DNA of 38,632 nucleotides. Origin: a virus. The translations under genes and the position numbers were made by a program. The DNA lies in IMG/VR virus record IMGVR_UViG_3300044621_002545, positions 1 through 38,632 of that record. One strand, written 5' to 3'. The notes below the pieces were generated by a model. The model saw only the letters and a list, made by a program, of their open reading frames with translations. It ran no database searches and was not told the DNA's origin. Position 1 is the first letter of the stretch, and every line of letters starts with the position of its first letter. This document shows positions 1 through 29,600 of the stretch, in pieces.

Positions 1-552
1 AACTGTCAACCCGCTGAGTCCATTGATATCCAAATGTTTCAAATACTTTTGATGAATGTCTTTTGAAAACAGTTGACTGGCATTGACAACTTCTGCTTGG
101 CACATGTTATCAATACCTTGATATCCCAACCCAGTGACCTGATTCAAAGTCATTGCTTTTTGATTTCTTTCATTGAAAATAATAGTTGAAGCTGGCACAT
201 TGAATTTCAATGGTATAAGAATAGTTTTGTAGGCCAAATCTATTTCGCCAGAATACAACCATCCATCAGTGTGAATACCTCCTGGCTTGACATCATTGCC
301 AATGTAAATGCTATGAACTTTGGCTTCTGGCATGAATTCAGCAATTCTTGATTGTACATAGTTGCCAAACCATTTGTTAAACGGCAAATTCCAATGTGTT
401 TCTTGAATAAATTTTATATTGTTGAATCGCTGTTTATCAAATTGATGGAAGTACCACACACACCACTCTATGGCTTCTTGATCAAAGAAATCATTGATCA
501 TTATGACTTCGTCGTTGCTTACAAATTTAATCGATGATGTGTTAGCTTCCAT
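1..552 (-). CDS. 2OG-Fe(II) oxygenase-like protein, 3' end cut by window edge
   Basis: The minus strand reads open from an ATG at 552-550 to base 1 (184 codons, no stop), so the C-terminus lies outside the window. The visible protein has the facial-triad signature of Fe(II)/2-oxoglutarate dioxygenases: PGGIHTDGW at residues 90-98, with the HxD pair at H94 and D96. It is followed by ILIPLKFNVP and a beta-rich stretch ending in IIFNE. Phage members of this superfamily hydroxylate protein or small-molecule substrates. The distal iron-binding His and the 2OG-binding Arg cannot be assigned, as they should lie near or beyond the edge. The start follows the gp46 stop (556-554) by one base, so it is the last visible gene of the leftward string. 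Hand tallies of GC in it are low (17/60 at 361-420, 20/60 at 121-180), like the cargo genes upstream. The superfamily is fairly clear; the substrate is unknown. Confidence 0.72.
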   Translation of the reverse strand, partial: MEANTSSIKFVSNDEVIMINDFFDQEAIEWCVWYFHQFDKQRFNNIKFIQETHWNLPFNKWFGNYVQSRIAEFMPEAKVHSIYIGNDVKPGGIHTDGWLYSGEIDLAYKTILIPLKFNVPASTIIFNERNQKAMTLNQVTGLGYQGIDNMCQAEVVNASQLFSKDIHQKYLKHLDINGLSGLTV

Positions 553-553
553 T

Positions 554-2317
554 TTAGTTGATTTGTATATCTGTGCTGTAGCTTGTGAATCCGTTTTCTT
601 TGATCACTCGAAGAGTGTTTTCTACCCGACCAGCCAGTTCGTCTTTGTGACTCACAAGCCAAATTGATTTGTTGCGTTCTCTACTTATTTTTTTCAGCAA
701 TGCCAGCCCATTTTCCACACCCTGTGTGTCCAACCCATTGTCCATGAGTTCGTCGATGAACAACATATTGATAGGCTGATAAAGACTTTCCCACACATCA
801 CGAAATGCCCATGACATTGACAAAATCAATCTAGTGCGCTCACCACGACTGAGATTGTCAAAATCTAGTTCACGACCTAGCTCCTCAATGCTGACTGATA
901 GATCGTTTTGAAACTTTACAGTGTGCGGTAGTCCAATGCGATCTAGATAGTGAGTCATCCTTTGATTGAGATAACTCAAGTTTTGATCAATTATTTTCTT
1001 TCGCACAAAACTATCTTTGCTGGTCAGCAACTTGAGTAAAAAGTCTTGATGTTCTTGTAAACGTGTAAGCTCATTGATAGTGTTGTAATTCACAGTTTGC
1101 AGAGCTTGTTTTTGCATGTCTGAGATCTGTTCACCGTAAGGATCTGCTTCAGCTGTACGAGATTCTAGACTCCGGCGCAGACTTTCTAGACTATTGCGAT
1201 GATTCAGCGCATCTTCCAGTGTGTCGTAAAACACCGTGGGTGCCACTCCCAACTCACTTAGATCTTCTAACTCGTTCTCATATTCAACAAGTTCGTTGCG
1301 TTTTTCTTGCCAAGCTGTGTTGATTTCAGCAAGATCAGTGAGCTTGGCTGTTCTAATTGTTTCGTGTTGATTGTCGTGAATGTCTTGACCGCAGGCATGA
1401 CAGCGATGCGAGGCCAGCATGGCAAGTTCTTGCTCTAACCGGGTTCTGGCTTTTTCCAGTTTGACAATTTCTGCAGACACCAATCGATGATTTTTGTTGC
1501 AGTCGTCAATGGATTTTTTGAGTTGATGATAGGATTCAAGATCTCTGTGCGCTTGCACTTCGATGTCAATGTCAATGTGCTCAAGGTCAGCAATGGCCTG
1601 TGCATAAGTTTCACAATCTTCTTGTTGCTTTTTGAGCCACAGTGTTTGACGTTTGCGTAAACTGTCAATCTGTTCTTCAATACGCTTGTTGGCTTCTTGC
1701 ACTGCCCGGATACGCATTTCTTCTTGAGAGATAGATTCTTTGGTTTCGCGATTGAGTTCTTTGATGCGATCGGCTCGGTCACTGAGTTGTGTGATGCCCA
1801 GCAGTTGTTCAATGATGGTACGCTGTTCGTTGGCCTTGAGACTGAGAAAGGCAGGGGTGTATGTATTGAGACCCACAATGTGTTGAAACATGTCATGACT
1901 CATGCCAATCACACGCTCTATGGCATCCTGTGTTTCACGACTGTCGCCTTGTGCTTCGTCAGTGGCAGTTTGTTCTTCTTGATTGACATAAAACTTCAAC
2001 ACATTGGGCTTGCGGCCTCGCTCAATTCTGTACTGACGGCCACCAACTTCAAAGTCCAGCCCAACCAGCATGGCTCGGCCGTTGGTTTTGTTCACAAGAT
2101 TGTCTTTGCGAATGTTGCTGAGAGCCTGACCAAACAAAGCATAGCTGAGAGCATTGATGATTGTGGTCTTGCCTGTGCCATTGCGTGAGCCGTCGCCGCC
2201 AAGGTCTAAGTTTTCGCCTAGAACCAAGGTAAGATCTTGACGATTGAAGTCAATACCTTGAGTGGTATTGCCCACACTCATAAAGTTTTTAACAGTTAAT
2301 TTTTTAAATTGGATCAT
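554..2317 (-). CDS. 46: Recombination endonuclease subunit gp46 (SbcC/Rad50-like ATPase)
   Basis: This 587-aa protein is the SMC/Rad50-type ATPase subunit that works with gp47 to resect DNA ends for recombination-dependent replication and for host DNA breakdown. The Walker A loop is at about residues 43-52 (GSRNGTGKTT). Long heptad-like helices flank a zinc hook, C306-H-A-C309. The ABC signature LSRGERTRL is near residue 485 and Walker B, NMLFIDELMD, near 517. The length is close to T4 gp46 (560 aa). Its ATG (2317-2315) overlaps the TGA of the upstream radical-SAM gene as ATGA, which implies translational coupling. In T4-like phages gp46 normally lies close to gp47; here three cargo genes separate them. 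A sampled line is clearly richer in GC (31/60 at 1201-1260) than the neighbouring cargo. Confidence 0.96.
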   Translation of the reverse strand: MIQFKKLTVKNFMSVGNTTQGIDFNRQDLTLVLGENLDLGGDGSRNGTGKTTIINALSYALFGQALSNIRKDNLVNKTNGRAMLVGLDFEVGGRQYRIERGRKPNVLKFYVNQEEQTATDEAQGDSRETQDAIERVIGMSHDMFQHIVGLNTYTPAFLSLKANEQRTIIEQLLGITQLSDRADRIKELNRETKESISQEEMRIRAVQEANKRIEEQIDSLRKRQTLWLKKQQEDCETYAQAIADLEHIDIDIEVQAHRDLESYHQLKKSIDDCNKNHRLVSAEIVKLEKARTRLEQELAMLASHRCHACGQDIHDNQHETIRTAKLTDLAEINTAWQEKRNELVEYENELEDLSELGVAPTVFYDTLEDALNHRNSLESLRRSLESRTAEADPYGEQISDMQKQALQTVNYNTINELTRLQEHQDFLLKLLTSKDSFVRKKIIDQNLSYLNQRMTHYLDRIGLPHTVKFQNDLSVSIEELGRELDFDNLSRGERTRLILSMSWAFRDVWESLYQPINMLFIDELMDNGLDTQGVENGLALLKKISRERNKSIWLVSHKDELAGRVENTLRVIKENGFTSYSTDIQIN

Positions 2318-3915
2318 ATAAAACTAGAAAACTCTGGTAATACTGTACTCAATGATTCACTTCTAGACTGATCTAATAAATTAGTTAATCGTTTAAATTC
2401 TGACAGAAAATGTGAAGAGTCTTTACTCCACATATATTGTAACACATCTGTCCACTGTTTTGCAAGATTAAATGATTGATTTTGATAACACCAGTTGATA
2501 TGATTTTTTATTTTGTAATCAAGTTGGTCTTTGTGCTCTTTCGGCAAGGTGGTCAGTGTTAAATGATCTGGACCAACTATAACCTGCATTGAGAATTTTG
2601 AAATATCCAAAAGTTTGGTTTCGTGCCAAGTTTTTTGCAACTCGATCAAACTAGCAATATTCAAAAATCCCACGGTCGAAGTCACAGTGAAATTCACATG
2701 GGGACACTGCTGTTTGAGTGCTGTCAAATTTGATTCAATTGTCGGCCATTTGGTTCCGTGCCTAACGTATTCGGCTGTTTTGCCCATTGCATCAAGGCTT
2801 GCTCCAATTGTGACTTTACTGAACTTTTTCCACAAGTCCAACACAGAAATATCTTTGTATACGAGTGATGTAAAATTGGTGTTGTAGATTATTTCTAAAT
2901 CAGTATTTCCACATTCAATTAATGCATTTAATATTTTGTAATGCTCTGACGCAAGCAACGGCTCCCCACCTGCAAAATATATTTTTTCCGCGTGTGGCAA
3001 ATATGTAATGACTTCTTTGAGGACCATTGCTTTTTGTGGAGATTGAATAATTGACCCTGGTGCCATTTGATTGCCAAAGAGAATTGATTCCTCCTGTGCA
3101 ATTGCACTGCTGTAATAACCACTACACATTCTGCATTTGAGATTACAAATGTTGCTTAACCGTATGTCAAGATACACTGGTTCAAATTTTTTGAGTGTAC
3201 CATCAGGATCAATATTTAATTTTTTTTGAGACCATTGAATATTGTGAAATTGCCTTGGACTTTTTAAGCCAGCGTCTTCCTGGACATAACAACGTTTACA
3301 TTCCTTACTGCGCTTGCCTGTCAACATGTTTGTTCGTAAAAGATTAAATTCAGAAGATTTTAAAATTTCATCCACAGTGGTGTTGTTGACATTGCCCATT
3401 GTAAATTTTTGATCAGCAACACAGCACGGCAATACATTACCGTCTGGGCCAATGTATAAATGAATCCATGGTAACACACAAAATGTATCTTGTTGTTGCT
3501 GAAACGTATTGTATTCAATATCATGTACAATGTGACTTTGTATTTTACAAATATCAGTAGAATACAACTTTTGAACTTGTGTTAGTTCATCATCTATATT
3601 TTTATTGCCAGTTATTACTACAATAAAAAAATTACTGATATCTATCTGACTAGCATATTTTTGCAAAGCACATATGGCGCTACCAGGCAAGTCTTGATAG
3701 TCATACACATCTGCACAATCTTGTACTATGAGTATTCTAAAATTGGTATTGTATTTGGGCTGATAAACAGAAGTTAAAAAATTATATAATTTTTTGTCGC
3801 CATCAGTCTGGTAAAATTCTGAAAGGTAATATGGCCCAACAGTGTCATAATTTTTTTGAAAATCAGCAATGGATTGATCTATTAGAGATGTTGAGCACAA
3901 TTTGTTTTTGTTCAT
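2314..3915 (-). CDS. Radical SAM protein 1, twitch/SPASM domain first
   Basis: The start is taken at the ATG 3915-3913 because it overlaps the sulfotransferase TGA (3914-3912) as ATGA, matching three other junctions of this string. An in-frame ATG at 3927 would add four residues. From the chosen start (533 aa), an N-terminal region of about 135 aa is followed by a cysteine cluster typical of a twitch/SPASM auxiliary Fe-S domain: C146 before LPWIHLYIGPDG, C164-C165, C206 and C209. The radical-SAM signature CNLKCRMC follows (C257, C261, C264), then GGEPL at 316-320, which binds the SAM amino group. The auxiliary domain therefore precedes the catalytic barrel, the reverse of classical SPASM enzymes. 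Such enzymes usually modify peptides or sugars by radical chemistry. It is very AT-rich (14/60 GC at 3541-3600). The family call is strong; the substrate is unknown. Confidence 0.9.
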   Translation of the reverse strand: MNKNKLCSTSLIDQSIADFQKNYDTVGPYYLSEFYQTDGDKKLYNFLTSVYQPKYNTNFRILIVQDCADVYDYQDLPGSAICALQKYASQIDISNFFIVVITGNKNIDDELTQVQKLYSTDICKIQSHIVHDIEYNTFQQQQDTFCVLPWIHLYIGPDGNVLPCCVADQKFTMGNVNNTTVDEILKSSEFNLLRTNMLTGKRSKECKRCYVQEDAGLKSPRQFHNIQWSQKKLNIDPDGTLKKFEPVYLDIRLSNICNLKCRMCSGYYSSAIAQEESILFGNQMAPGSIIQSPQKAMVLKEVITYLPHAEKIYFAGGEPLLASEHYKILNALIECGNTDLEIIYNTNFTSLVYKDISVLDLWKKFSKVTIGASLDAMGKTAEYVRHGTKWPTIESNLTALKQQCPHVNFTVTSTVGFLNIASLIELQKTWHETKLLDISKFSMQVIVGPDHLTLTTLPKEHKDQLDYKIKNHINWCYQNQSFNLAKQWTDVLQYMWSKDSSHFLSEFKRLTNLLDQSRSESLSTVLPEFSSFI

Positions 3916-4568
3916 CGTTTCTGCCAATGAGTTAAATTTCTTTCGACCATGCTTTGAAATTTTTCAATTTCAAGATTTATTAACTTGATCTGACTAGAAG
4001 AAAATAGCACTGGAGTTTTAGGCTGTTGATTCTCGTTGACTTTTGTCTCAATGCCATTGATCTTTACATTGCGGAGTTCACAAAACTTGAAATAGTCTGA
4101 TAAAAACTGTGCTGGCTCACTGACTATGTCTTCATAAAATAAGATTTTGAATTTGCTTTTTGAAAGATTTTTGATCCATCTGTTGACTATGTCGCTATAG
4201 CAAATCTGTTTAGTATCAATACACATATCAACAAAATCAGGTATTTCCAAAGTTTTTGGTAGCCAGTTATAAAATCTTTCTATAAACAAATACGGACTGC
4301 TGATCATAATAGTAGTGTGTGTGGCGACTTGATCAAGTTGCTGTATTAAACATTGATCTACTTGCCAAGTAGCAACATGAAAGTTGGCTGAAATATCCAA
4401 GTTTTGATAATATTTTTTATACTCATCAAAATTGTTGTTTTCTAAAAAGTATGGCGGCTCTTTCTCAAGAGTCTCTAAACAAACATCAGGGTGTTGACCT
4501 AATTGTTTCCACAACCACGATGTACCACATTTTGCCATACCAATATTTAAAATATGCTTTTGTTTCAT
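3912..4568 (-). CDS. Sulfotransferase family protein
   Basis: This 218-aa protein opens with HILNIGMAKCGTSWLWKQL (residues 5-23), the P-loop-like 5'-phosphosulfate-binding motif of PAPS-dependent sulfotransferases (GxxKxGTSWL). A later KILFYEDIVSEP segment (141-152) followed by FLSDYFKFCEL is the usual YED...P...FLGL-like helix of the fold. The region around 88-101 (MISSPYLFIERFYNWL) sits where the 3'-phosphate-binding R/S motif normally lies, but it is not canonical. The expected activity is transfer of sulfate from PAPS to a sugar or peptide hydroxyl. It overlaps the 155-aa orphan upstream as ATGA (4568-4565) and radical-SAM protein 1 downstream, so the three genes are translated as a coupled set. 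It is strongly AT-rich (14/60 GC at 4381-4440). The acceptor cannot be read from sequence. Confidence 0.88.
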   Translation of the reverse strand: MKQKHILNIGMAKCGTSWLWKQLGQHPDVCLETLEKEPPYFLENNNFDEYKKYYQNLDISANFHVATWQVDQCLIQQLDQVATHTTIMISSPYLFIERFYNWLPKTLEIPDFVDMCIDTKQICYSDIVNRWIKNLSKSKFKILFYEDIVSEPAQFLSDYFKFCELRNVKINGIETKVNENQQPKTPVLFSSSQIKLINLEIEKFQSMVERNLTHWQKR

Positions 4569-5032
4569 TCCACTTTCTGGTTGTTTCTTTGATATGATCG
4601 AAAATTTCTAAAAACATTTTTATAAAACGGCCAATCAAAATAGTATTCTAACTTGCCAGTAAAATCAACACAATTTGTGTCGCATATATTTTCTTCAAGC
4701 ATGATTTGTTTAGACTTTGAATATATCAAAAAGTCATCATTGAATTTTGAGTGTCCTGAATAAAGTATTTTATCAATGGAATAAAAATCATCAAGCACAA
4801 TTCTAGTTATTGTTAGAGGATAATCAACGATACTATGATTGATTGTTGCAAATGACAATTTTAATTTTTGTGGTGAGAATTTTTTAACAGAAAAATCAAT
4901 CAAAAGATCTGTACAAGATTTGTTTAGATCAAGTTGATATTCAATCAGAATCTGATGAGCATCTCTCAGTTGAACGTCAATGATTAACGGCTTGGGCGAG
5001 ACCAAATGTTCAAATTGGCATGATAGGTTCAT
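4565..5032 (-). CDS. Unknown 155-aa protein between gp47 and the sulfotransferase
   Basis: I do not recognise this gene. The 155-aa product has no signal peptide or membrane segment. Its first two thirds alternate hydrophobic and polar residues (IIDVQLRDAHQILIEYQLDL, LLIDFSVKKF, PLTITRIVLDDFY), which suggests a small beta-sandwich. The end is aromatic and basic (KLEYYFDWPFYKNVFRNF). Two cysteines lie close together (ENICDTNCVDF). Both junctions are ATGA overlaps: with gp47 upstream (5032-5029) and with the sulfotransferase downstream (4568-4565). This implies that it is made in step with them and may serve the same pathway, for instance as a carbohydrate- or substrate-binding partner. That role is inference from position and predicted strand content only. 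It is AT-rich like the other cargo (16/60 GC at 4681-4740, 14/60 at 4861-4920). Confidence 0.75.
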   Translation of the reverse strand: MNLSCQFEHLVSPKPLIIDVQLRDAHQILIEYQLDLNKSCTDLLIDFSVKKFSPQKLKLSFATINHSIVDYPLTITRIVLDDFYSIDKILYSGHSKFNDDFLIYSKSKQIMLEENICDTNCVDFTGKLEYYFDWPFYKNVFRNFRSYQRNNQKVE

Positions 5033-6048
5033 AGGTTCTGATAAATTTTCAACAATAGTTTATTATCGTAGAATTCAGATTCAATATTGGTAAGCTGATC
5101 CACAACAATTTGATCCACTGACTCGAATTTAACTTCGCCGGGTGCCATGTCTTCGTCGACACCAGCTGCCTTGTTAGGAATCAGAGACATCTCTCTTAGA
5201 TTATAATCTCGTATAAAAGTTTCTTTGATGAAGTTGGCTTCTTCGTATGAAATCTCAATGTCTAGATTGACCCTGACATGCATTTTGGGTCTAAGAAGCG
5301 ATCCAGCGTGATCAATAAGGTTGGCGAGTCCGTATACCCTGTAGGTCGGTTGATCAGGCCAAGCATGAAACTCAGGCGCTGATCCCCACTCCAGTACAGT
5401 AAGGCCTCGTTCGTCGTCACCAGCATCTGCATAATTGTGAGGGAACGCATTACCAATGTAGGTAATATTGTTTTTGGTCTGTCGCTTGTGAAAATGTCCA
5501 GTGAATACATGTTCAAATCCTCTGAGATCTTCTCTGCGAACTTCGCCATGATCAGGCATTTCTACCATGGCATTCATGAGATAGCCAGGCAGCTCAAAGT
5601 GACCAAACATATATTTGCCACTCATTTTTGCTAGACGCCGATGATCATCACCCACGAGCCAAGGAGCAATAACCACATCGCCGCTGTCAAACCAGTCATT
5701 ACAAATCTCCACACGGGGGAGGTGTTTGGCCCACTCCACGCTTTGTATGTCTCTCTTGTCTCGATAATACAGATCATGATTACCAGGAATAAAATAAACC
5801 CGTTCAAAGTGATCATTGAGATGCTCCAAGGCTCTGAGGCTGTAGTTCAAGGTCACAATATTTAAGCTGGCACGGTTGTTGTGCCAGTCGCCTAGAAACA
5901 TAGCAGTTTCGCAGCCCAGTTCACGAGCTCGGGTAGTGGCCCAATGAACAAAAGACAAGCAGTCTTCGTTGTGAAGTACTGAATTTGATTTGAGCCCAAA
6001 GTGTATGTCAGTGAATATGGCTGCTTTTTTAAATAAACTGGTCATCAT
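5029..6048 (-). CDS. 47: Recombination endonuclease subunit gp47 (SbcD/Mre11-like)
   Basis: This 339-aa metallophosphoesterase is the nuclease partner of gp46. The five phosphoesterase motifs are in order: TDIHFG (D14, H16), FLGDWHNN (D54, H56), PGNHD (88-92), GHFELPG (149-155) and TGHFHKR (183-189). Together these supply the two-metal site. The length equals T4 gp47 (339 aa). Two ATG codons stand at the start (6048 and 6045) and either could be used. The TGA overlaps the next ATG as ATGA. Upstream, 42 bases separate it from radical-SAM protein 2, the largest gap in the string, so an internal promoter there is possible, although no clear one is visible. GC is high in the line tallied (32/60 at 5701-5760) compared with the flanking cargo. 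Confidence 0.95.
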   Translation of the reverse strand: MMTSLFKKAAIFTDIHFGLKSNSVLHNEDCLSFVHWATTRARELGCETAMFLGDWHNNRASLNIVTLNYSLRALEHLNDHFERVYFIPGNHDLYYRDKRDIQSVEWAKHLPRVEICNDWFDSGDVVIAPWLVGDDHRRLAKMSGKYMFGHFELPGYLMNAMVEMPDHGEVRREDLRGFEHVFTGHFHKRQTKNNITYIGNAFPHNYADAGDDERGLTVLEWGSAPEFHAWPDQPTYRVYGLANLIDHAGSLLRPKMHVRVNLDIEISYEEANFIKETFIRDYNLREMSLIPNKAAGVDEDMAPGEVKFESVDQIVVDQLTNIESEFYDNKLLLKIYQNL

Positions 6049-6090
6049 GTTAGTGTACTGGATTTACGTAAAAAACACAATGAAAACGAA

Positions 6091-7608
6091 TCATTGACTC
6101 ATTGCCATAAAAATTTCTGGGTGACTGTCACTGAATTTTTGATTTCTTTTTTGGTCGTAGGCCAATGTATGACTCACAAAGGCTTTGCCGTCAGCTCCTG
6201 TGCTGTGTTTTACACGCTCAGCGATGTTTTTGAGTTGACTGTGAGAAGAATTTTGAAATTTTTTCCAAACTAAATTTTTAGCGGCTGATGTCATATAATC
6301 TATACAAAAATAGTCTGGACTCTGTACGTAGTTCCAAACAATTTCCAAACCAAGATTCTGAGCAAAATCAACCAATTCGTCAAGATAAAATACATTTTGA
6401 ACGTTCACAGCAACAGCAATTTTGATTGTAATATTTTCAGATTTGTTTTTTAAAATTTGAAGCATGTTGTCACGAACCAAATTCCAGGAAGATCCCCGTT
6501 GAATTTCGAACCTTTTGCCAATGTCATCTATACTGAATAGAATTTCGGCGTTGACAAATTTAGCCAATAAGTCAATCACAGTTTGATCGTAACGACTACC
6601 ATTGGTATTTAACTCCATTTGAATATGGTCAGCATTGCCAGAGTCAATGATACGTTGTAAAAATTCTTTGAGGGTTGGCAGTAACAAAGGCTCGCCTCCT
6701 AATATGTGTATGTCATCGAGGTCTTGATACAATGGCTGATACAAAGACAAAAATGAGTCATTGCCCACTTTTTGTTTGAGTTGATATTTCATTTCATTGA
6801 TCACATGCTTGTTGGTTTCGTTAGCAATATTTTCTACAGCTATCGACGAACTGGCTTGATCGCTACAAATTCTACATTTGAAATTACAAGTGATATCTGG
6901 CACAATAGTCAATGTTTTCACTGTGGGGTTGTCTATGTAATCACTGTGAAAACGGTCGTCGTATTTGGTCAAAAAATATTGTCTATAGCTAGTGGTGCCT
7001 TGCTGCTCGTTTTTCCAGCAACTGCTACATTCACTTGGTTGTTGGCCGTTGCGTATGCTCTGGCGCAGTTGATCAAAATCATTGTTGAACAAAATGTCCG
7101 TGGCTGATGTAGTGCTTAAATTGCCTATGGATTTTTTGTACAAACAGCAAGGAGTAACCGAGCTGGTGGCATCAACAAACATACCAATCCAGGGCATAGG
7201 ACATAGATTACGATAGTCAGCAATGTGACAATCTTCTAAAAGTTGTGTTGGCTCAATTTCTACACATTCACTGCCAATTGCCACGTCATCATATCCATAT
7301 TTGGAATTGGCCCGACTCAGGTTGTCTCTGATGTCGTGAGCGCAATAAATTTTTATAAAAAAATTGCTGATGTCAACTCTGGCTGCGGCACGTTGAACAT
7401 GTTCTAAAATTTTGTCAGATGGTTTGTGACTGGTAAAAAAACACAGTCGTTGATTGTCTTGATAGCAGTCCTGATGTAGTTGTTTGAATAATTTGTAAAT
7501 TTTTGAGTGAGCTGTGACCACATCGGCCAAATCTTCAAAACATATTACATCGTATTTCTTATAGACACTAGATTTGAGATCTTGTATTGATAAAAGATTA
7601 TTCTTCAT
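6091..7608 (-). CDS. Radical SAM protein 2, twitch/SPASM domain first
   Basis: This 505-aa protein is a paralogue of radical-SAM protein 1. The layout is the same: an N-terminal domain of about 130 aa, then an auxiliary cysteine set (C136 in LCPMPWIGMFVD, C154-C155, C194, C197), then the radical-SAM signature CNFKCRIC (C241, C245, C248) and GGEPLL (304-309). The N-terminal domains also match locally: DISNFFIKIY here and DISNFFIVVI in the other protein, both followed by a basic/acidic stretch with a conserved spacing. The two genes are therefore full-length duplicates that have diverged, not just shared catalytic domains. The ATG (7608-7606) lies 11 bases inside the end of gp55. Base composition is intermediate (19/60 GC at 6781-6840, 29/60 at 7021-7080). 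The substrate is unknown; peptide or sugar modification is typical of the family. Confidence 0.9.
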   Translation of the reverse strand: MKNNLLSIQDLKSSVYKKYDVICFEDLADVVTAHSKIYKLFKQLHQDCYQDNQRLCFFTSHKPSDKILEHVQRAAARVDISNFFIKIYCAHDIRDNLSRANSKYGYDDVAIGSECVEIEPTQLLEDCHIADYRNLCPMPWIGMFVDATSSVTPCCLYKKSIGNLSTTSATDILFNNDFDQLRQSIRNGQQPSECSSCWKNEQQGTTSYRQYFLTKYDDRFHSDYIDNPTVKTLTIVPDITCNFKCRICSDQASSSIAVENIANETNKHVINEMKYQLKQKVGNDSFLSLYQPLYQDLDDIHILGGEPLLLPTLKEFLQRIIDSGNADHIQMELNTNGSRYDQTVIDLLAKFVNAEILFSIDDIGKRFEIQRGSSWNLVRDNMLQILKNKSENITIKIAVAVNVQNVFYLDELVDFAQNLGLEIVWNYVQSPDYFCIDYMTSAAKNLVWKKFQNSSHSQLKNIAERVKHSTGADGKAFVSHTLAYDQKRNQKFSDSHPEIFMAMSQ

Positions 7609-8491
7609 AGCTGATTGTTACAGAACCTGACATAGCAGCAGCTGATTTTGAACCCGAGTTCTGTCTAGTCCATGACGGGTTAAGTCCGTTCATTTCAAGA
7701 ATGTCATCTCGAATGTTCTGGTTCTTTTTTTCGATGTTAAGAATCCGTGTAAAACTATTAGTGATCGCAGCGGTATAGTAAGCAAAGGGGTTTTGCGATT
7801 TTGATTCGTCAAATTGAAGACCAATTTGACTAAGTTGAAGTAGAGCCTGTCCACGCATTTCCTCGTTGTATGTATATCCACGCCAGTTTGACCTTGTGGC
7901 ATAACGCTCACACAATTTCATAAACATCATGGCCAGTTTACGAGTCATGTTGCCGTGATCTTTGCTGAATTCTCCTGTGTCTAACGTGCCTCGCCAGTGA
8001 CTTTTGCCCACAAGAAACGGTGTGCGATTTTCATCAATGCGATAGTGAAAAAACGGAGGAAAGTTAACTCTGACATGTGTGGGATCCAACACTGGTTCGT
8101 CTACCAAATCTGCCAGCGTTTCATCAGACTCGTCTATGTCAAGGATGTCTTCAAACTTGCGTTTTTTAAGCTGAGCCTTGGTGGGCTTTTTGGGAGCCAT
8201 GGGTATGTGCTCCCATGTCATCACTCTGTATACCAAGTCTGTGTTGGGTATTTTTTTGGGATCAATTACTTCGCCGGTTTCGCGTTTGATACGGTCAGCA
8301 CGATTTCGACGAGCCTCGGCTGTGGTTTTTTGATTGATTTTGCTGACACTGGGTAAAATTATGTCGTATTGATGGTCCAGGTCTGGGTCACGAAACACAC
8401 AGTAGGTATTTTTGCTGAAGTGTATTTCTTTCAGTATGTCGCGGTTGTTGAGATAATTGGTTTTGGGTGCGGGTTTTGACAACAAAGTCAT
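7598..8491 (-). CDS. 55: Late-transcription sigma factor gp55
   Basis: The C-terminal half (about residues 165-285) carries the region-2-like core of T4 gp55-type sigma factors: FMKLCERYATRSNWRGYTY, EMRGQALLQLSQIGLQFDE, NPFAYYTAAITNSFTRIL and NIEKKNQNIRDDILEMNGL. gp55 directs host RNA polymerase to late promoters whose only element is TATAAATA, with the sliding clamp as activator. At 297 aa it is longer than T4 gp55 (185 aa). The extra N-terminal part is charged and includes a Lys-rich then Asp/Glu-rich patch (KPTKAQLKKRKFED, DIDESDETLADLVDE). Marine T4-like gp55 proteins, as I recall them, also carry such an extension. A GGAG ribosome site precedes the ATG, and a late-type element lies at 8520-8511, so it may act on its own promoter. 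Confidence 0.92.
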   Translation of the reverse strand: MTLLSKPAPKTNYLNNRDILKEIHFSKNTYCVFRDPDLDHQYDIILPSVSKINQKTTAEARRNRADRIKRETGEVIDPKKIPNTDLVYRVMTWEHIPMAPKKPTKAQLKKRKFEDILDIDESDETLADLVDEPVLDPTHVRVNFPPFFHYRIDENRTPFLVGKSHWRGTLDTGEFSKDHGNMTRKLAMMFMKLCERYATRSNWRGYTYNEEMRGQALLQLSQIGLQFDESKSQNPFAYYTAAITNSFTRILNIEKKNQNIRDDILEMNGLNPSWTRQNSGSKSAAAMSGSVTISYEE

Positions 8492-8510
8492 AAAAAGTCT
8501 CCAGGGTCAA

Positions 8511-8520
8511 TATTTATTGT
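8511..8520 (-). promoter_or_regulatory. Late-type promoter element upstream of gp55
   Basis: Read on the minus strand this is ACAATAAATA, a 7/8 match to the T4 late consensus TATAAATA. It ends 19 bases before the gp55 ATG at 8491, leaving room for a transcription start and the GGAG ribosome site. Confidence 0.55.
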
Positions 8521-8574
8521 AGCACAAATACCACAGTTGTCAACCATTGATTAAACTGCGCACAAAAAGATTTG

Positions 8575-8582
8575 GGTAAATA
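8575..8582 (+). promoter_or_regulatory. Late-type promoter element upstream of the structural module
   Basis: GGTAAATA keeps the TAAATA core of the T4 late promoter. It ends 20 bases before the ATG at 8603, with AGGA (8588-8591) between as ribosome site. It is the only candidate promoter for the first gene of the rightward block. Confidence 0.5.
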
Positions 8583-8602
8583 TACATAGGAAAAAATATA
8601 AA

Positions 8603-20200: not shown

Positions 20201-20648
20201 TCAAGGACTGGATCAATACAAAATGATCAGTGACAATGTGTTGGTCAACAGTGTGTCATTTAAGCCACTGTTTGGTCCCAAAGCAGCCGCCGACTTACAG
20301 GCCACTATCAAAATTATCAAAGCTCCCAATGTGGTTGTCAGTGACAGTGAAGTCAAAAACACAGTGGTGTCATTGATGAATACATATTTTTCAATTGAAG
20401 CTTTTGATTTTGGTGACACATTTTACTTCAGTGAACTGGCTGCTTACATTCATAAAAATGCTGGAAGCATAATAAGTTCAGTGGTATTGGTTCCACTGGA
20501 TCCACAAAAGTATTTTGGCGACTTGTATGAAATAAGATCAGCACCCAATGAAATATTTGTCAACGCAGCTGGAGTAGAAAACATACAAGTTATTTCAGCG
20601 TTGACCAGTACCAACTTGAGAACAGCACCAGGCAGCGGAGTGATTTAA
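17223..20648 (+). CDS. 6: Baseplate wedge protein gp6
   Basis: This 1141-aa protein starts with the strongly conserved gp6 N-terminal helices: FETLRKVFVDYLRQYYPETF, DYVESSEFIALLDVIAFMG, RNDLNTRENYLDTAERRDSV and VVKLADLVAYTPKRN. A baseplate-J-like part follows, with RAPARYYTQNRMVNGEDYNN near residues 416-435. gp6 dimers form the ring that links the wedges. T4 gp6 is 660 aa; the extra length lies mostly in the centre and C-terminal half, with beta-rich segments such as a DIDSDGIADDPDFFD acidic loop. The final part (KMISDNVLVNSVSFKPLFGP onward) resembles the gp6 dimer-forming end. The stop overlaps the giant gene's ATG as TAATG (20646-20650). Confidence 0.92.
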   Translation: MARTTRQTVVFGVEDWKRIYQTYREADFQSYDFETLRKVFVDYLRQYYPETFNDYVESSEFIALLDVIAFMGQALSFRNDLNTRENYLDTAERRDSVVKLADLVAYTPKRNQAAEGLLKVFSVATTENIADFNGINLSNITVNWNDPTNLNWQEQFTAIINAALVDSQKIGKPANRTTILDVRTDEYTINLIPGFLPVISYNSTVDGISMPFEAVSASTIGQSYIYEPSPLPVGKFNVLFRNDQQGFESANTGYFFLFKQGVLTNVDFNLAEAVVNRTVPVNVEGVNNQDHWLFQLDTVGNVQFEWEYVESTYAAAVEQLAPDQRKLYSITSRSNDQITLTFGDGVFSSVPVGFFRCYVRASNGLTYIINPEEMQSVVIPITYVSRTGNREVITFTCGITQPVSNAQSRETLAEIKQRAPARYYTQNRMVNGEDYNNFPFTLYNSIIKSKAVNRASIGTSRYLDLVDNTGKYSSTNSFGSDGALWEENVSPTFLFTWSSVNEIASTIINQVEPLLVDYGFTQFYNANFPRPNLSGLLISWQQSTTLINETTGYFKGASGSPYPIGPLTTSNAKFIAVGSLVKFEPPAGYFFDANNRLKLGTPTLPDEKVEIWASPTEIFVDGTNQGQGNLANGSGPVVFNNFIPTGAIPTEVIPLLVTDLSTTIENEMIAQIELYRNFGLGYDSTGSVTGTPYSWYVITSTNIDANGDWSQQYAGNTSGANLDASWVVKFTTDGETYTVTSRALVYYFGSVLQTRFFFESGQRIYDSRTGTVISDFVKVLKVNSQPDSSFPLYTDYSLSIVGQPVQSDGYVDDFQVLVSYQDIDSDGIADDPDFFDAIVAPSVNPNAKLVFFEKTVDFDNLQRYLLVNPDRVNTNYATENDIELVKFEFVDGQIFYATQEQKFFQLVISGLNIRTLVDVTNEWLVRTGRNALYYQYRHNAPLTARIDPGTTNIIDIYVVTQTYYTQYLNWIRDTTGTVPEPAQPTLQQLTNEYQGLDQYKMISDNVLVNSVSFKPLFGPKAAADLQATIKIIKAPNVVVSDSEVKNTVVSLMNTYFSIEAFDFGDTFYFSELAAYIHKNAGSIISSVVLVPLDPQKYFGDLYEIRSAPNEIFVNAAGVENIQVISALTSTNLRTAPGSGVI

Positions 20649-23600
20649 TGGCCACAACCAGAACAGTGGATCTTCTTCCACCAATTTTTCAAACTCAAAC
20701 TAACCGACAGTTTTTGAGTGCCACGCTGGACCAACTCACTCAAGAACCGCAGTTCAAAAAAACACAAGGATACATTGGTCGTAGACTGGGGCCAGGAGTC
20801 ACTGTTGATCAAAACTATGTCACCGAACCCACGGCTCAACGCAGCAATTATCAGCTTGAGCCAGGTGTGCTGCGAGTTGATCCAGACAACAATGCCAAAA
20901 TTTTAGACATCATACCCTATCCGGGTATTCTTGATTCTATAAGCACACAAGGCGGATATGTCAATCGTGCTGATCGTTTGTTTACCAGCGAATACTACAC
21001 CTTTGACCCTTTTGTTGACTATGACAAGTTTGTAAATTATGGTCAATATTACTGGGTGCCTGAAGGTCCATTGGCAGTGGATGTCAGCGCCACTGACATT
21101 CCTTACACAGATGATTTTACAGTAACCAGAACCAGCACTGGATACAAATTTAGCGGTGTGGCCGGCACCAATCCTATTTTGTATCTGGCTCGCGGTGGCA
21201 CTTATACTTTTGCCGCTAATCAACCTGGGTTTAATTTTTGGATTCAGGCCACACCAGGTGTAAATGGGCGGTTGCCTTTTTATCCCAACATTAGCAGCAG
21301 AACTGTGCTTGGCACAGAAAACAACGGAGAAGATTCAGGCACCATAACATTCAATGTGCCTGACAAAACAGCACAGCAGTTTTATTATGATTTGCCCAGC
21401 ATTGGCTCTGTTGATCTCATCACATCTCTACAGTTTTCGCAGATCCAAGGTCAAAATCCAGTGACTTTTGTGGCCACTCAAGGTGGCATTGACGGTATAA
21501 CCAATCTCAATGGTCGCACACTGATTTTCATCAATGATTCAGTGGAAGATCCTGCTCGCAGCATATGGCGTATCAATTACATCACTAGTGGGCTAGGCAA
21601 CATTACCATGAATTTGGAGTTGGTACAGGCAGTATCTAATTTTCAAAAGTTCAGTATTGTGTTTGGATCAGTGTACAGCAACACCAACTGGTACAAAAAT
21701 GCTTTTGGACAATGGGAACAGATTCCGTTGCTGACAGCGGTACAAGATGTGTTGTACTATCAGGACTCCGAGAATCCAGACTTTTTTGGTTTTATCAAAT
21801 TGGTGGAATTGGCAGACAATCCCACTCTTGACATTGATGACATTTTGGGCCAACCCAATTACACCAGTCCCAATGGGGTGGTGTTCACCAACAATCTTCA
21901 AGTTATTTTCCGAGGGCCTACCTCGCCTGCCAGTTATTCCAATCAAGCATATTACGTAGCTGGTGTTGGATCTGCCATTGAACTGTTGCCTGTGAGCGAA
22001 TTCATCACTCCAGAGCCCTATACCAACAGCGCCACTATTCCCTATGACAGCACAGCTTATGACAGCACACCCTATGATGCGGCACTGAATCAACCATTGA
22101 TACCTGACTATCTGGTCATGGCATTGAACAGCCCTGATCGCAACGCCTGGGCACGTACCAACCGTTGGTTCCATGTTGATGTGTTGGTGGCCGCCGCTGA
22201 GTATAACAACAGTGAGTTGGTGCTGGACAACTTTTATCGAGCCAAACGTCCTATTTTAGAGTATCGCGGCGGTCTTAGACTGTTCAACATGGGCACTCAA
22301 AGCAAACAGCCCATTGACATCATTGATTTTTCAAGCACCGATGCATTGAGCAACATCAATGGCTCACTGGGCTACGGCATTGACGGATACAGTTTTGTTC
22401 AAGGCACTAGAGTAATTTTTGCTGCGGATCAGGATCCTCAGGTTCGCAACAAAATTTACGTGGTCAATTTTATCAGTCCAGACGGCACTGGTGACGGATC
22501 GTCAATTCCGCAGCCTATTATAAACTTGGTGCCGGCCAATGACAGCGAAGTGCTGGCCAATCAGTGTGTGGTCTGTATCAGTGGCAACACGCTTCAAGGA
22601 GTGAGTTTTTGGTTTGATGGTGTTGAATGGACACAGGCACAACTCAAGACTCAGGTCAACCAAGCTCCGTTGTTTGATGTGTTTGACAGCAACGGCATCA
22701 GTTTTGGCAACAAAGTTCGTTATCCCAGCAGCAGTTTCACCGGAAACAAACTGTTCAGCTATGCCATTGGATCTGGACAACGTGATCCTGTGCTGAACTT
22801 TGCTCTGCGTTATCTCAGCATTAGAAATGTTGGTGACATTGTGTTTGACAACAATTTGTACACTGACAGTTTTATCTACCTACAAGATTTGATAGCACAG
22901 ACTTTGCCAGTGAGCACAGGTTTTGTACATCAGTACAGTGATCGTACTGTGTATAAAAAACAAACCGGATGGCAAACAGCCGCAGTTGCCAGTAAGATTT
23001 ATCAACAGTTTGAGTTTTCTTATGTCAACGGAACGTCGTTGGTGTTGGATGTGCCAGCACTGCCAGTTGACACTGTGCCCAGTGTCAAAGTGTATGTTGA
23101 CAACGTTTTTCAAGACATTGGCACATATTCTTACAGTGTTCAAGGCCAAAAAACTGTTGTGACATTGGATGACAACCTGATAACCACAAGTCAACGTGTG
23201 GTTGTATTGGTCCTAAGCAACACAGCCAGCTCTGTTGGTTTTTACCAAGTGGCAGCCAATCTTGAAAACAATCCTTTCAATGTCAACAGTTCAACTTTTA
23301 CTCTGGGCTCAATTAGAACGCACTACGAAACCATTGCTCAAAATTTGTTGAATTTTTCAGGGCAGGTCAATGGTGCCAACAATACCAGAGACCTTGGCAA
23401 CATTGTGCCTTTTGGTTTGAATATTTTACAACAGAGTTCGCCACTGACGCTGACTGGTTATTTTTCACGCAGCAGTCAGTACAATGTTTGGCGAGCCATT
23501 CAGTTCAACGGCCAAGAGTATGAAAAATTCAAAGCGCAACTGTTGAACATTGTGGTGACCAATGATTATATCAATCTGTCTATTTCTGAAACACTCACAC

Positions 23601-26600
23601 AGGCCATAGCAGATTTGACCCTGGGCAGACTTGATACCAATCCATTTTATTGGAGTGACATGCTGCCGCATGGCAGCACCTATGAGCAAACAGTGTACAC
23701 GGTATCGCCTATATCTACCAATGTGTTTGACACACAACAGATTTACAATTATGCCAGTGCCAACTATCAAGGCTTGTTGGTTTACTACAACGGAGATACA
23801 CTGTTGACAAGAGGCATTGAGTATGAGGTCAATGCCAATGCTCCAACTATCACAGTAAACATTCCGCTGGCAGTGGGCGATACAATCACTGTTCAGGAAT
23901 ATGCCACCACCTATGGCAGTTTTGTTCCCAACACACCTACCAAAATGGGTCTATATCCAGCGTTTATACCTGAGATATATTTGGACACTACTTACATCAC
24001 GCCCACGCTGGTAATTCGTGGCCACGACGGCAGCATAACCAAGTGTTTTGGCGATTTTCGCGATCAGTTGCTGCTTCAATTTGAACTGAGAATATACAAC
24101 AATCTCAAACTGGAAAACAATCCTGTACCATTGACTGCGGCCGATGTTGTTCCTGGGCAGTTCAGACAAACTGATTATTCATTGAGTGAAATCAATACCA
24201 TACTCAGTGAAGACTTTTTGATTTGGTCTAGCTGGAACAAGCTTGACTATGTGACTCAAGATTACACCACAAATCAGTTCTCCTGGAACTATCAAGCAGC
24301 CAGCAACAAACTGTCGCCAACCAATGGTCCACTGAGAATAGGTGCCTGGCGCGGACTTTATCAGTATTTCTACGATACCATTTATCCCAACACCAGACCG
24401 TGGGAAATGCTGGGCTTTGCTATACAACCTGATTGGTGGCAAATAGAGTATGGTCCTGCTCCCTACACCGGCGATAACTTGGTGTTGTGGGACGATCTGG
24501 CTCAGGGGCTGGTCAAGGATCCCAATGGTCCGTATATCTTGCCTCAGTATGCTAGGCCACAACTGACACAGGTCATTCCAGCTGGATCTGAAGGAGAACT
24601 GCTGAGTCCGTTGTTCAGTGTGGTTGGCAACTACGACAGCAACACTTTCCGCGCCAGCTGGATATTTGGCGACGATGGACCAACTGAAAATGCCTGGCGT
24701 ACCAGCAGTTCGTATCCATTTGCTGTGATGAGATTGTTGGCGTTGACCAGACCAGCAGAATTTTTCAGCCTGTTTGCTGACAGAGATCTTTATCGTTTTG
24801 ATACGTCACTGGATCAGTACGTGTACAACGGCCGTTACAGATTGGATGCCAATGGCATTGAAGTCTATGGCGACGGCACCAGCAAAGCCAGTTACATCAA
24901 CTGGATTGTGGATTACAATCGAGTCAGTGGCATTGACAGCACACGAGACTTGACAGTGGCGTTGAGCAACTTAGACGTAAGACTGTGTTACCGCATGGCC
25001 AGCTTCAGTGCCAAGAATTACATTCAAGTCTACAGCGAGCGCAGCAGTCCCGAAAGCACCAACAGCAGTTTGTTGCTGCCAGACGAGAGTTACAACTTAC
25101 TGTTCTATAAAAATACGCCTTTTGCTTCATTGACTTACAGCAGCGTGATGATTCAAAAACAGGCCAACGGTTATTCAGTTTGGGGATACAGCGTCAATGA
25201 TCCTTACTTTACTGTGTTGGTCAGCGAAATCAATGGTGCCACAAGACAGATCAGTTCAGGCGGCGTCACTGTGTCAGTGCCACGAAATTACACCAACAAT
25301 GTGGTAAGGGTACCATACGGATATGTGTTTACCAATGCCACCATTGTGGCTGACTTTTTGTTGAGCTACAGTGCTTATCTTGAATCCCAAGGTATGATAT
25401 TTGATTCTAGAGAAAATGGTTACACTCTTAATTGGAATCAAATGGTCAATGAATTCTTGTACTTTTCCACACAAGGCTGGGCCGACGGCACAGTGATCAA
25501 TCTCAATCCTGCTGCTACCAAATTGATGATCACTAGACCCGAATCCATAGTTGACGACATCAGTGTTCAAACATTGGAACAACAGGTTCTCAATCAAGAC
25601 AGCAGAACCTTAGATGCCAGAAACTTGATAGTTGATCGCTATGACAACACATTTGTGGTTGAGAGTGTGACAGGGCAAACTATCAATTTGTTGACTGTGA
25701 AGTTTGTGTCTTTTGAACACATGCTGGTGTTTGACAATGTCAGTATTTTCAATGACTTGATATACGAGCCAGCCACTGGCGCCAGACAATCAAGATTGAA
25801 TTTACAGGCTTCGACCACCATGGATTGGAATGGACAGCTCAATGCCAGTGGCTTTTTGTTGAATCAAGACAATGTTCAAGAATGGCAGCCTTTTAGAAAG
25901 TATACCAAAGGCGATCTAGTGCTGTGGAAAAACAACTACTACAGCGCCAACACCATTGTACAGCCCAGTGCTGAATTTCGCATCATGGACTGGAGCCAGA
26001 GCGACTATACCAAAATTCAACAAGGACTGTTGCCTAACTTGGCCAACAAGAGCGATCAATTGGCCCAAACGTACAGTATTTACACAGCCAATTTAGAACG
26101 TGATCAGGATTTGTTCTCTTACGGACTGATTGGATTTAGACCAAGACAGTACATGGCTGCATTGAATCTTGACGATGTTAGTCAAGTAAACCTTTACAGT
26201 CAATTTTTGCCTATCAAAGGTTCTATCAGAGCAGCAGAAATTTTCAAGTTTGCCGACCTTGGTCGAGGCACTGCTGAGTATGATATCTATGAAAATTGGG
26301 CGCTGCTGCGAGCTACCTACGGAGCCAATGCCAATAGAAGTTACTACGAGTTAAGACTGAACGAAGCTTTATTGGAATCAAATCCCAGTATCATTCAAGT
26401 TATAAACAATCAACAAATCAGCGACGCTGATCAAACAGTGACTGTGGACAACATTTGGAAAAGCAGTTACAAAATTACCAGTCCAGATATTCTAAAAACT
26501 TCCTTGATATCTGACTACGTGTTGCCCACAGCGGGCTATGTCAATGAAGATGATGTTGATATCACAGTGTTCAACATTGATGATCCACAGTCGCTGAATG

Positions 26601-29600
26601 CCAATATCGACAGCATTGTGATTGGTACCAATATTTGGGTAGCCAAAATCAATGATTATGATTGGGGCATATTCAGAGCTGACAAGGTACCAGGCCAAAT
26701 TACCGCAGTAAAATCAAATCTCAATGGATTTAGCACAGTGATTTTTTCAGAGGCTCACGGGCTCGCAGTTGACGATATATTGATCATAAAGTTTTTTGAC
26801 GAAAATGTCAACGGCACTTACAAGGTCACTGCTGTGCCTGATGTGTTTTCTGTTTTGATACCATTTGTGTTTCCCAATGCTTTTCAAATTCAAATACTGG
26901 GCACTGGAATTGGTTTTACACTGACCTCTCAACGAGTCAGTCAAGCCAGTGATGTAGCCACATTGAGTTATGCGAAATCCATACTGCCTGGCGCCAAAGT
27001 TTGGGTAGACAATGACGGCACTGGACACTGGACAGTGCTGGAAAAACAAGATATCTTTACCAACGGCGGCTTGCTGCTGCCTCGAACACAAAGTACCAAC
27101 GAACGTTTTGGACAGAGTATATCACAGTCATTGAACAATCAATTTGCCACAGTGGGCACTCCAGGTTTCAACAGCGATGCTGGTGCTGTGTATACATTTG
27201 TGCGTACCGCTCAAAATGTGTTTGTGCTCAATGAACGAATTGAATGTAACGCCATTGACACAGCAAAATTTGGACAGACAGTGGACACTGGCAACTTGCT
27301 GTTTTCAGCCGTGGGCGCACCTGAATCAGCTGACAATTTGGGTTACGTTGGCATTATCTCCAGACTGCCAAATTCAGCAGATTTTTTCCTTACCCAGTTA
27401 ATTACTCCACCTGAAAACTATCTTGGACTGCCTTGTGAATTTGGCAGCAGCCTAGTGATCAGCGATGATGAGGGTTGGCTTTATGTGGGAGCTCCAGGCA
27501 TCAACAAAGTATTTGCCTACGCTTTGATACAGCATCAAAATCAAAGAGTAACTTATGTTACCAACGGGTCTCAGACCGTGTTTAACTACAGCAACACTGT
27601 TCAAATCAACAGTAACAATCCTGGTCAATTGTTGGTTGTACTCAATGACACGGCACTGACTGCTGGCGTAGACTTTGTTTTGACAGCCACTGACATTATT
27701 TTTTCTGTGGCACCAGCCAGCAATTTACAGCTGACCATAGCTAGAAAAATAAGTTACGACTACACCGGTGACGGCAGCACACAGACATTTAGCCTGGCCG
27801 ACCAGTTGTACCTTGCTACTAATATCAACAGCTTCTTTGTAGTATTGAATGGCGTAGTACAACGACCAAACATTGACTATGAATTGCTCAGCAGTTCTGA
27901 TGAACTATACTTTTTTGTTGCACCGCCCAACAACGCACTGATTCAACTGACCACCCCATCATACTACAAGTATGTTGATGAAATCCGATATGCTGTTGTG
28001 TTTGAAGGGTCAATTTTGGGCACCACACTCACAGTGTCAAACATAGTGCCAAATGGTCCTCAATTGGTCTTGGGTATGAAGCTGGCTGGCACAGGCATCA
28101 ATCCAGAAACCACTATCACTGCGCTGGGCACAGGCACAGGAGGTCAGGGCACATATACAGTGAGTATCAGTCAGAGTGTGGCAAGTGCTACCTTTTATGC
28201 CAGACTGAGCGACAATGCTAGATTTGGAGCCAGTGTCAGTTGTACCACTGACGGCCAGCAAGTGATGATTGGCAGTCCTGACGATCGCACTGCTGATCTT
28301 GATGATACTGGGTCACTTTATATTTTTGATCGCACAGTACAACAATTTTTGGTCAGTGCTGCCAACACTACCAGTTTCACAGTCACTGGACCAATCTTGG
28401 TTGCTCCTACTGCTGTCAGTGTCAATGGTAATTTTTTAATCAGTGATGATACTGGGCCCAACGGCCAATACGCTGTGTCTGGTACCACAGTGACTCTGGA
28501 CCAGGCCCCTGACATTGGCGATCTGGTACAAGTTGATGTCAACACATTTAATTTTGTACAAAAACTCACTGCCACAGCACCTGTACAAGGATCTCAGTAT
28601 GGCGAAGCAGTGGATGTGTGTACCAGCAACTGTAGTCTGTTTGTGGGAGCACCGTTTACACCGTTGTCAGTTGATGAGTTTGCAGTGGTTCAAGAATCTG
28701 GCAGTGTGTTTAGAGCAGTGAATCAAAGTAGAATCTACGGCACCATAACCAGTGTCAATGCCAACCCAGCACTGTTGCCAGGCAACACGCTGAGGATCAA
28801 CAACTTTGAAGTTGCTGTGCCGGCAGCGCCCAACAACAATGTGGCTGGTTTGGCCACAGCAATCAACAACTCAGGTATTCCCAATGTCACTGCGTCAGTG
28901 GGTGCCACTGGCACTATCAACGCTGGAAGATTGACACTGAGTGTGATCAATTTTGACGCATCTGATCCCATGAACAGATTGTCAGTGGCACCAGGTCAAA
29001 TTGGTTCAACTTTTGATAGACTTGGATTTAACACTTTTGTTCAAACACAACAAATTCTGCCACCAGTGGCTTTTGATTTTGGTCATTTTGGACAAACTGT
29101 TGTGCGGGACTTGGGCAGTGACACAGTGATAATTGGTGCTCCAGGCGCCAGCCTAGTGCGTCCAACTACGTTTGACAACAACACCACATATTTTGATGGG
29201 CGCACTACAGCATTTGTTCAGATTGTGCCTCAAAGCGGAGCAGTGTACAGTTTTGATTATTTAGACAGTGCCACTTTCTCTGTGAGCACTCCAGGCCAAT
29301 TTGTGTTTGGACAACAACTCAGCAACTCTTTTGTACAAAGTCTTGATCAATTTGGCACAGGACTGAGTTATAGAAATGGCATTCTTCTTATAGGTTCTCC
29401 AGGGTTTGATACCAATGACAGCACAGAAAGCTTCAAAAACTACGGCAGTGTCAACATATTCAACAACCCGTCTCAAGCACCGGCCTGGACTCCTATTCAT
29501 ACCCAGCGTCCAGTGGTTGATATCAGCTTGATCAATGGTGTTTATTCTTACGATCGTATCACCAGTGCCAAGACTCAGTTTTTTGATTATTTTGATCCGC

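Follow-up and report, generated by a model that had tools for sequence, protein, structure and literature searches.

The gp47/gp46 junction as an insertion hot spot and probable cargo slot in phages related to Arenbergviridae

In the viral IMG/VR record IMGVR_UViG_3300044621_002545, the recombination genes gp47 and gp46, coding for SbcD/Mre11-like and SbcC/Rad50-like subunits, are separated by three genes: an orphan, a sulfotransferase homologue and a radical S-adenosylmethionine (radical-SAM) gene. A sequence-only reading had considered this AT-rich cassette as acquired cargo fitted into translational coupling and as the best candidate for an undescribed system in this DNA. Do these genes form such a system, or are they one filling of a variable place? 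The window, i.e. the whole 38,632-bp stretch analysed here, corresponds to the entire record; since related metagenome contigs reach 250-350 kb, it probably covers only part of a large phage genome. Our results firmly document a hot spot at the gp47/gp46 junction, suggest a testable rule for insert ends, and show that the three genes are not a new system. In the Arenbergviridae-related group, made up of large T4-like phages that are known mainly through metagenomes, this junction is probably a cargo slot, and the window cassette one of its states.

The three genes lie between gp47 and gp46 in the order first described, with the same coordinates and all four overlaps, and every boundary of the cassette is an ATGA overlap, in agreement with the idea of acquired cargo fitted into coupled junctions. 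The cassette and its flanks are as follows (overlaps were read directly from the sequence):

554..2317, minus strand: gp46 (SbcC/Rad50-like subunit), downstream flank of the slot (phrog_77, E=3e-102)
2314..2317, minus strand: ATGA overlap, radical-SAM stop / gp46 start
2314..3915, minus strand: cargo gene 3, twitch-domain radical-SAM protein, 533 amino acids (aa) (NF033640, 384.6 bits)
3912..3915, minus strand: ATGA overlap, sulfotransferase stop / radical-SAM start
3912..4568, minus strand: cargo gene 2, homologue of sulfotransferases of the 3'-phosphoadenosine 5'-phosphosulfate (PAPS) type, 218 aa (PF00685, E=1.4e-7; 3rnl_A, E=2e-5)
4565..4568, minus strand: ATGA overlap, orphan stop / sulfotransferase start
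4565..5032, minus strand: cargo gene 1, strand-rich orphan, 155 aa (no family match)
5029..5032, minus strand: ATGA overlap, gp47 stop / orphan start
5029..6048, minus strand: gp47 (SbcD/Mre11-like subunit), upstream flank of the slot (phrog_100, E=3.5e-53)

The radical-SAM gene starts at the ATG at 3915; a mechanical list of open reading frames (ORFs) extends it to a TTG at 3927.

Two IMG/VR scans with gp47 and gp46 as queries provided 151 loci. The gap between both genes was measured in these and in radical-SAM loci, which gave 97 distinct junctions (i.e. differing in sequence) and, with the window, a total of 98. Thirty-two were empty: in 30 of them gp47 is joined straight to gp46 through the very ATGA found at the end of gp47, its stop and the gp46 start sharing exactly these four nucleotides, and two displayed a short variant. 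The other 66 were filled with inserts of 648-4883 bp comprising one to five ORFs. Altogether, 116 insert ORFs were distributed into 29 clusters and 34 different fillings, i.e. 35 states when the empty one is counted. This makes the junction a compact and countable model of auxiliary-gene gain in lytic phages, with one 4-nt site, an empty state and 34 fillings. Cargo families included twitch radical-SAM proteins, other radical-SAM proteins, DUF6071 proteins, 2-oxoglutarate-Fe(II) (2OG-Fe(II)) oxygenases, an AMP-binding enzyme, TctC receptors, Rieske dioxygenase alpha and beta subunits, a methyltransferase-like protein and a weak match to short-chain dehydrogenases. The most common cargo, cluster c1, gave a good structural model (predicted local distance difference test score, pLDDT, of 84); its PDB search returned no significant match, sulfotransferases recurring on top at E ~0.15 as a lead only. 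Sulfotransferases, radical-SAM proteins, oxygenases and related enzymes fit glycan, peptide or small-molecule modification.

The claim that the cargo was acquired held up in several respects. The nearest relatives of the window by gp46 (94% aa identity) are either empty (L081, L082) or carry another gene (L002), and its radical-SAM DNA is closer to that of locus L152 (80% identity) than its gp47 (73.5%) or gp46 (67.5%). The same gene order, with congruent trees, was not encountered in nearly all relatives. Likewise, the AT-richness noticed at first was confirmed by a sliding GC profile of 30-38% across 2251-5000 and 40-49% on either side, which the original 60-base tallies fit as a whole. GC content and GC at third codon positions (GC3) amounted to 29.7% and 25.6% for the orphan, 32.9% and 32.4% for the sulfotransferase and 34.5% and 30.5% for the radical-SAM gene at 2314-3915, the corresponding core values being 43.7 and 42.9 (gp47), 43.9 and 43.5 (gp46) and 43.2 and 44.3 (gp55). 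This was general, as cargo GC was below gp46 GC in all filled relatives (65/65; mean 36.8% vs 44.8%). Codon usage agreed only in part. Compared with core samples of the same length, the departure was clear for the radical-SAM gene (0.33 vs 0.20 +/- 0.02), weaker for the orphan (0.50 vs 0.37 +/- 0.04) and small for the sulfotransferase (0.37 vs 0.30 +/- 0.04); because gp55 and gp46 also deviate by about 3 standard deviations, codon usage alone is weak evidence.

Cargo was not linked to its flanks. Mapped on the gp46 tree, cargo states changed 61 times, against 62.4 +/- 1.2 after shuffling, with 97/500 shuffles at or below the observed value; a slight signal appeared on the gp47 tree (53 changes vs 56.4, 7/500 shuffles being as low). 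Among pairs of loci in which gp46 and gp47 were both at least 93% identical, 20/135 shared their state and 115/135 differed. Pairs with the same cargo and other pairs had similar flank identities (0.853 and 0.858 for gp47, 0.773 and 0.761 for gp46, respectively). Furthermore, the variation was focal. Inserts of at least 250 bp occurred in 0/44, 0/47 and 2/37 cases at three nearby structural junctions (2/128 together), compared with 66/98 filled at gp47/gp46 and 37/83 at gp55/gp47.

At the level of insert ends, entry was a 4-nt overlap in 47/66 filled junctions and exit some overlap in 46-47/66. Shine-Dalgarno-like words of at least 4 nt before gp46 were recorded in 1/32 empty, 10/47 overlapping and 2/19 spaced junctions, random gp46 pieces reaching 17%; a recognisable Shine-Dalgarno before gp46 was thus not found in most junctions of any class. 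Consensus matches to a sigma70-like promoter (spacer of 17 nt, -10 box 5-11 nt before gp46) were present in 13/18 non-overlapping inserts, in 13/45 overlapping ones (for the most part within the end of cluster c1) and in 0/30 empty junctions (Fisher test, p=0.004 vs overlapping and 4e-8 vs empty). Strong promoters of this kind were seen just before gp46 in L065, L116, L127, L015, L047, L155, L078 and others. A promoter so close to the gp46 start would give a nearly leaderless mRNA. In the window, the gp46 start is ATGA-coupled and belongs to the overlap class; no good promoter match was seen directly before it, and terminator-like sites within 1-8600 were not above shuffles. We read the overlap and the nearby promoter, the latter known as consensus matches, as two putative ways to keep gp46 expressed, which offers a testable rule on the features that an insert needs so that the downstream core gene keeps working.

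The comparison thus shows cargo that is present or absent, its composition, the structure of the junctions, the recombination of modules and the missing linkage to the flanks. The scenario that we favour goes further. AT-rich foreign genes would enter, leave and be replaced between two essential and colinear recombination genes, through recombination between co-infecting phages that exchange one to three genes at a time as small modules. An insert would be tolerated only as long as it leaves gp46 expression in place. As a rule, the last cargo gene would overlap the gp46 start (ATGA in the window) and so preserve translational coupling; alternatively, the insert would supply a sigma70-type promoter directly before gp46. 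The carried enzymes, by modifying small molecules, glycans or peptides, may help infection. The window cassette would have been assembled from an orphan-sulfotransferase pair and an independent radical-SAM gene. No flanking repeat pair was found at the ends of the window cassette, and scans of the cargo families revealed neither a transposase nor an integrase.

Several points weigh against this scenario. Some of the distinct junctions are near copies. Core genes are themselves mosaic (distance correlations of 0.14-0.70, with 0.38 for gp47-gp46 and 0.14-0.20 between gp46 and structural genes), so general recombination accounts for part of the lack of cargo linkage, and the tree of gp46 does not stand for a genome tree. 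An island of raised silent-site conservation that would mark crossover points was looked for and none was seen. Spaced junctions are mostly devoid of a Shine-Dalgarno as well, so that the need for coupling is a putative one. The promoters are no more than consensus matches, and related inserts account for several of the 13 (L065/L116/L127, L015/L047, L147/L149).

Separately, gp46 itself seems to have been exchanged next to the slot, since relatives form two groups (59-62% and 71-94% identity to the window) while gp47 is mostly at 82-93%. We also considered, and rejected, that an L152-like phage had donated the radical-SAM gene along with the 5' end of gp46, L152 being no outlier of its gp46 group over the first 120 nt.

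What would drive the exchange? One version of the slot reading, to which we give serious though minority credence, is intronless homing, in which free-standing homing endonucleases cut the conserved junction of a co-infecting phage and repair copies the donor interval together with its cargo. HNH-like proteins related to phrog_5104 occur at the junction in three loci: in L045 and L139 they are the only occupants, in L075 cargo stands next to one; those of L045 and L075 are 91% identical, compared with 76% for gp46. A GIY-YIG-like protein resides at gp55/gp47 in L139 and, by motif only, in L019, and phage T4 has mobB between a-gt and 55. Yet, such a gene was present in only 3/66 filled junctions, the window cassette contains no endonuclease gene, which is what defines a homing element, and Pfam gave no HNH match for the two proteins tested. 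Slightly less probable is the wider reading that the junction is a rule-governed socket, open to any insert that restores gp46 expression by overlap or close promoter, driven by homing and serving co-infecting large phages as a general port for exchanging auxiliary genes.

That the three genes are a functional unit selected and moved together, e.g. to oxidise (radical SAM) and sulfate a glycan or peptide, the orphan being a binding partner, is improbable. The orphan immediately precedes the sulfotransferase in the window, in L013/L161/L163, in L162 and in L164 (profile search and locus inspection), and L162 carries homologues of all three genes, including a twitch-type radical SAM, at the same junction. 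However, its order is different (radical SAM, orphan, sulfotransferase) and its radical-SAM protein is only 24% like that of the window. The pair occurs without radical SAM in L013, L161 and L163, and radical SAM occurs alone at the junction in L152, L153 and L154. In L164, the pair lies beside genes resembling T4 gp62 and uvsW, according to our own reading of the ORFs. Moreover, the window sulfotransferase has lost an RNP arginine that its three relatives keep. The proposal of one undescribed three-gene system was abandoned as its modules are found apart at the junctions of relatives. This calls for caution in assigning adjacent phage genes to a single pathway, as reshuffling is almost free among the neighbours seen here.

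It is very unlikely that an ancestral many-gened junction lost different genes in different lineages. Small ORFs do exist at this place in T4, KVP40-like and cyanophage relatives, but the 35 states are mostly of unrelated families and gave no phylogenetic signal on the gp46 tree, cargo GC is distinct, radical-SAM DNA is more alike than its flanks, and the named sister group Arenbergviridae is empty; empty junctions contain no remnants, the 30 exact ATGA overlaps leaving no room for any. Assembly chimeras of related phages are hardly credible: close relatives are all metagenome contigs and the region is common to many similar phages, but arrangements recur in separate records (L152/L153, L013/L161), ORFs are intact with in-frame coupled junctions, and nearby junctions are almost free of such inserts.

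Several known phages can be set beside the probable cargo slot at gp47/gp46. The nearest named gp46 sequences are those of Pseudomonas phages MIJ3 and PA5oct (Arenbergviridae, 51% identity). Like the window, Arenbergviridae display a divergent structural block followed by gp55-gp47-gp46; unlike it, both gp55/gp47 and gp47/gp46 are empty. The separation of gp47 and gp46, which had been pointed out at first, is real in the window; it is not new in itself, since T4 (NC_000866) has 46.2 and 46.1 between 47 and 46, as well as a-gt and mobB between 55 and 47. Its overlaps are also of 4 nt, ATGA for gp47/46.2 and GTGA for 46.1/46. Yet, the T4 inserts are two ORFs of less than 90 aa, whereas those described here are enzyme-sized genes that vary among near relatives. 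Small ORFs were also recorded at this junction in a KVP40-like phage (one), a cyanophage (one), Atu_ph07 (one) and Phosso (two), and none in MIJ3, RaK2, Kaldavass, Melnitz-3 and AsFcp_2.

Variable places in related genomes were previously described, i.e. the region g15-g18 of cyanomyoviruses (PMC2984593), hot spots of T4-like phages including gp46-gp25 (PMC3037559) and a host-recognition island with radical-SAM cassettes in pelagimyophages (PMC7029224). No account of gp47/gp46 as a hot spot was found in our searches of open-licence papers. Like the hyperplastic regions of T4-like phages, where host-like metabolic or unknown genes are gained and lost at fixed core positions, the slot has a fixed core position (98 junctions), a content differing in close relatives and focal variation. 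Hyperplastic regions are, however, multi-gene islands between modules, while the slot comes down to one 4-nt overlap within an operon for two subunits, with inserts of one to five ORFs, mostly overlap-coupled and about 8 points lower in GC. According to one study, novel ORFs of T4-like phages match core GC (PMC1524935), unlike the cargo described here. Lambdoid morons (PMC1524935), too, are genes of foreign origin whose GC is unlike that of the core genes around them, and some inserts share with them a promoter. Most inserts are instead coupled and devoid of promoter and terminator, and the promoter, if present, serves the downstream core gene. The promoter and terminator of its own that characterise a moron were not found in the window, where ATGA coupling exists on both sides.

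Turning to the cassette genes, both enzyme assignments were upheld, the sulfotransferase by its Pfam match and the radical-SAM protein by an NF033640 score well above the curated cut-off of 170 bits. The latter displays the CxxxCxxC motif (C257, C261, C264) and twitch cysteines C146, C164/C165, C206 and C209, the cysteines being invariant. Its bacterial relatives were 24 remote matches of 27-36% identity spread across phyla. An identification as prokaryotic viperin (pVip) was rejected, with NF038283 scores of 27.0 and 42.9 bits vs a cut-off of 180; PADLOC pVip matches were also weak and confined to the shared radical-SAM core. In the sulfotransferase, the P-loop GMAKCGTSWLWK is intact and the 5'-phosphosulfate loop of PF00685 is present (GMAKCGTSWLW). 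The 3'-phosphate motif lacks its RNP arginine, the alignment reading SSP in the window and RNP in three relatives; the window copy may therefore be altered or decaying. The protein at 3912-4568 is thus named a sulfotransferase homologue, its Pfam score being above cut-off, and no claim of a working PAPS enzyme is made. The orphan status of the 155-aa gene also held, with no family match in Pfam, NCBIfam and PHROG-type scans. Its predicted model was poor (pLDDT 57) and its PDB matches, which ranged over chains of lipase, lipoxygenase, PI3-kinase and LecB lectin, were all weak (best E 0.04); they are compatible with a beta sandwich, no more. Profile comparison of the orphan with two small proteins, F28 and F43, was not significant.

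Some cargo at gp47/gp46 is more host-like than the rest, namely the TctC receptors and the Rieske dioxygenase pair of L042, L010, L147 and L149. The abundance of TctC hints at a betaproteobacterial host.

The surrounding operon is carried by the minus strand in the order gp55, radical SAM, gp47, orphan, sulfotransferase, radical SAM, gp46 and an unknown gene. It diverges from a plus-strand block of large ORFs, which corresponds to structural genes in named relatives. A single ORF of 4626 aa in the window (20648-34528, plus strand) is apparently a giant structural protein. The remaining operon genes are:

1..552, minus strand: variable gene after gp46, running off the record end (without match in family scans)
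6091..7608, minus strand: second twitch radical-SAM gene, in slot gp55/gp47 (NF033640, 265.8 bits)
7598..8491, minus strand: late sigma factor gp55, with which the operon begins (phrog_12791, E=1.6e-76)

The interval gp55/gp47 (6050-7610) appeared as a second variable slot, occupied most often by a twitch radical SAM; that of the window is 29% identical to the first one. Electron-transfer flavoprotein subunits (L122) were also seen there. The place of gene 1-552 is taken by other genes in relatives, and an HTD motif of the kind known from 2OG-Fe(II) oxygenases was noticed in it by eye only. Six gene families were found in more than one of the places gp55/gp47, gp47/gp46 and after gp46.

Downstream of gp46, the strand-rich F28 family (about 160 aa) recurs between families F20, F23 and F3 in L126, L055, L064, L035, L031 and L039. 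F3 and probably F20 are radical-SAM families, and F28 beside them is a possible enzyme-partner pattern. A 142-aa GIY-YIG-like protein (F5, motif only) occurs downstream of gp46 in most relatives, with 76 ORFs over the 98 loci, and is perhaps a resident nuclease of the operon.

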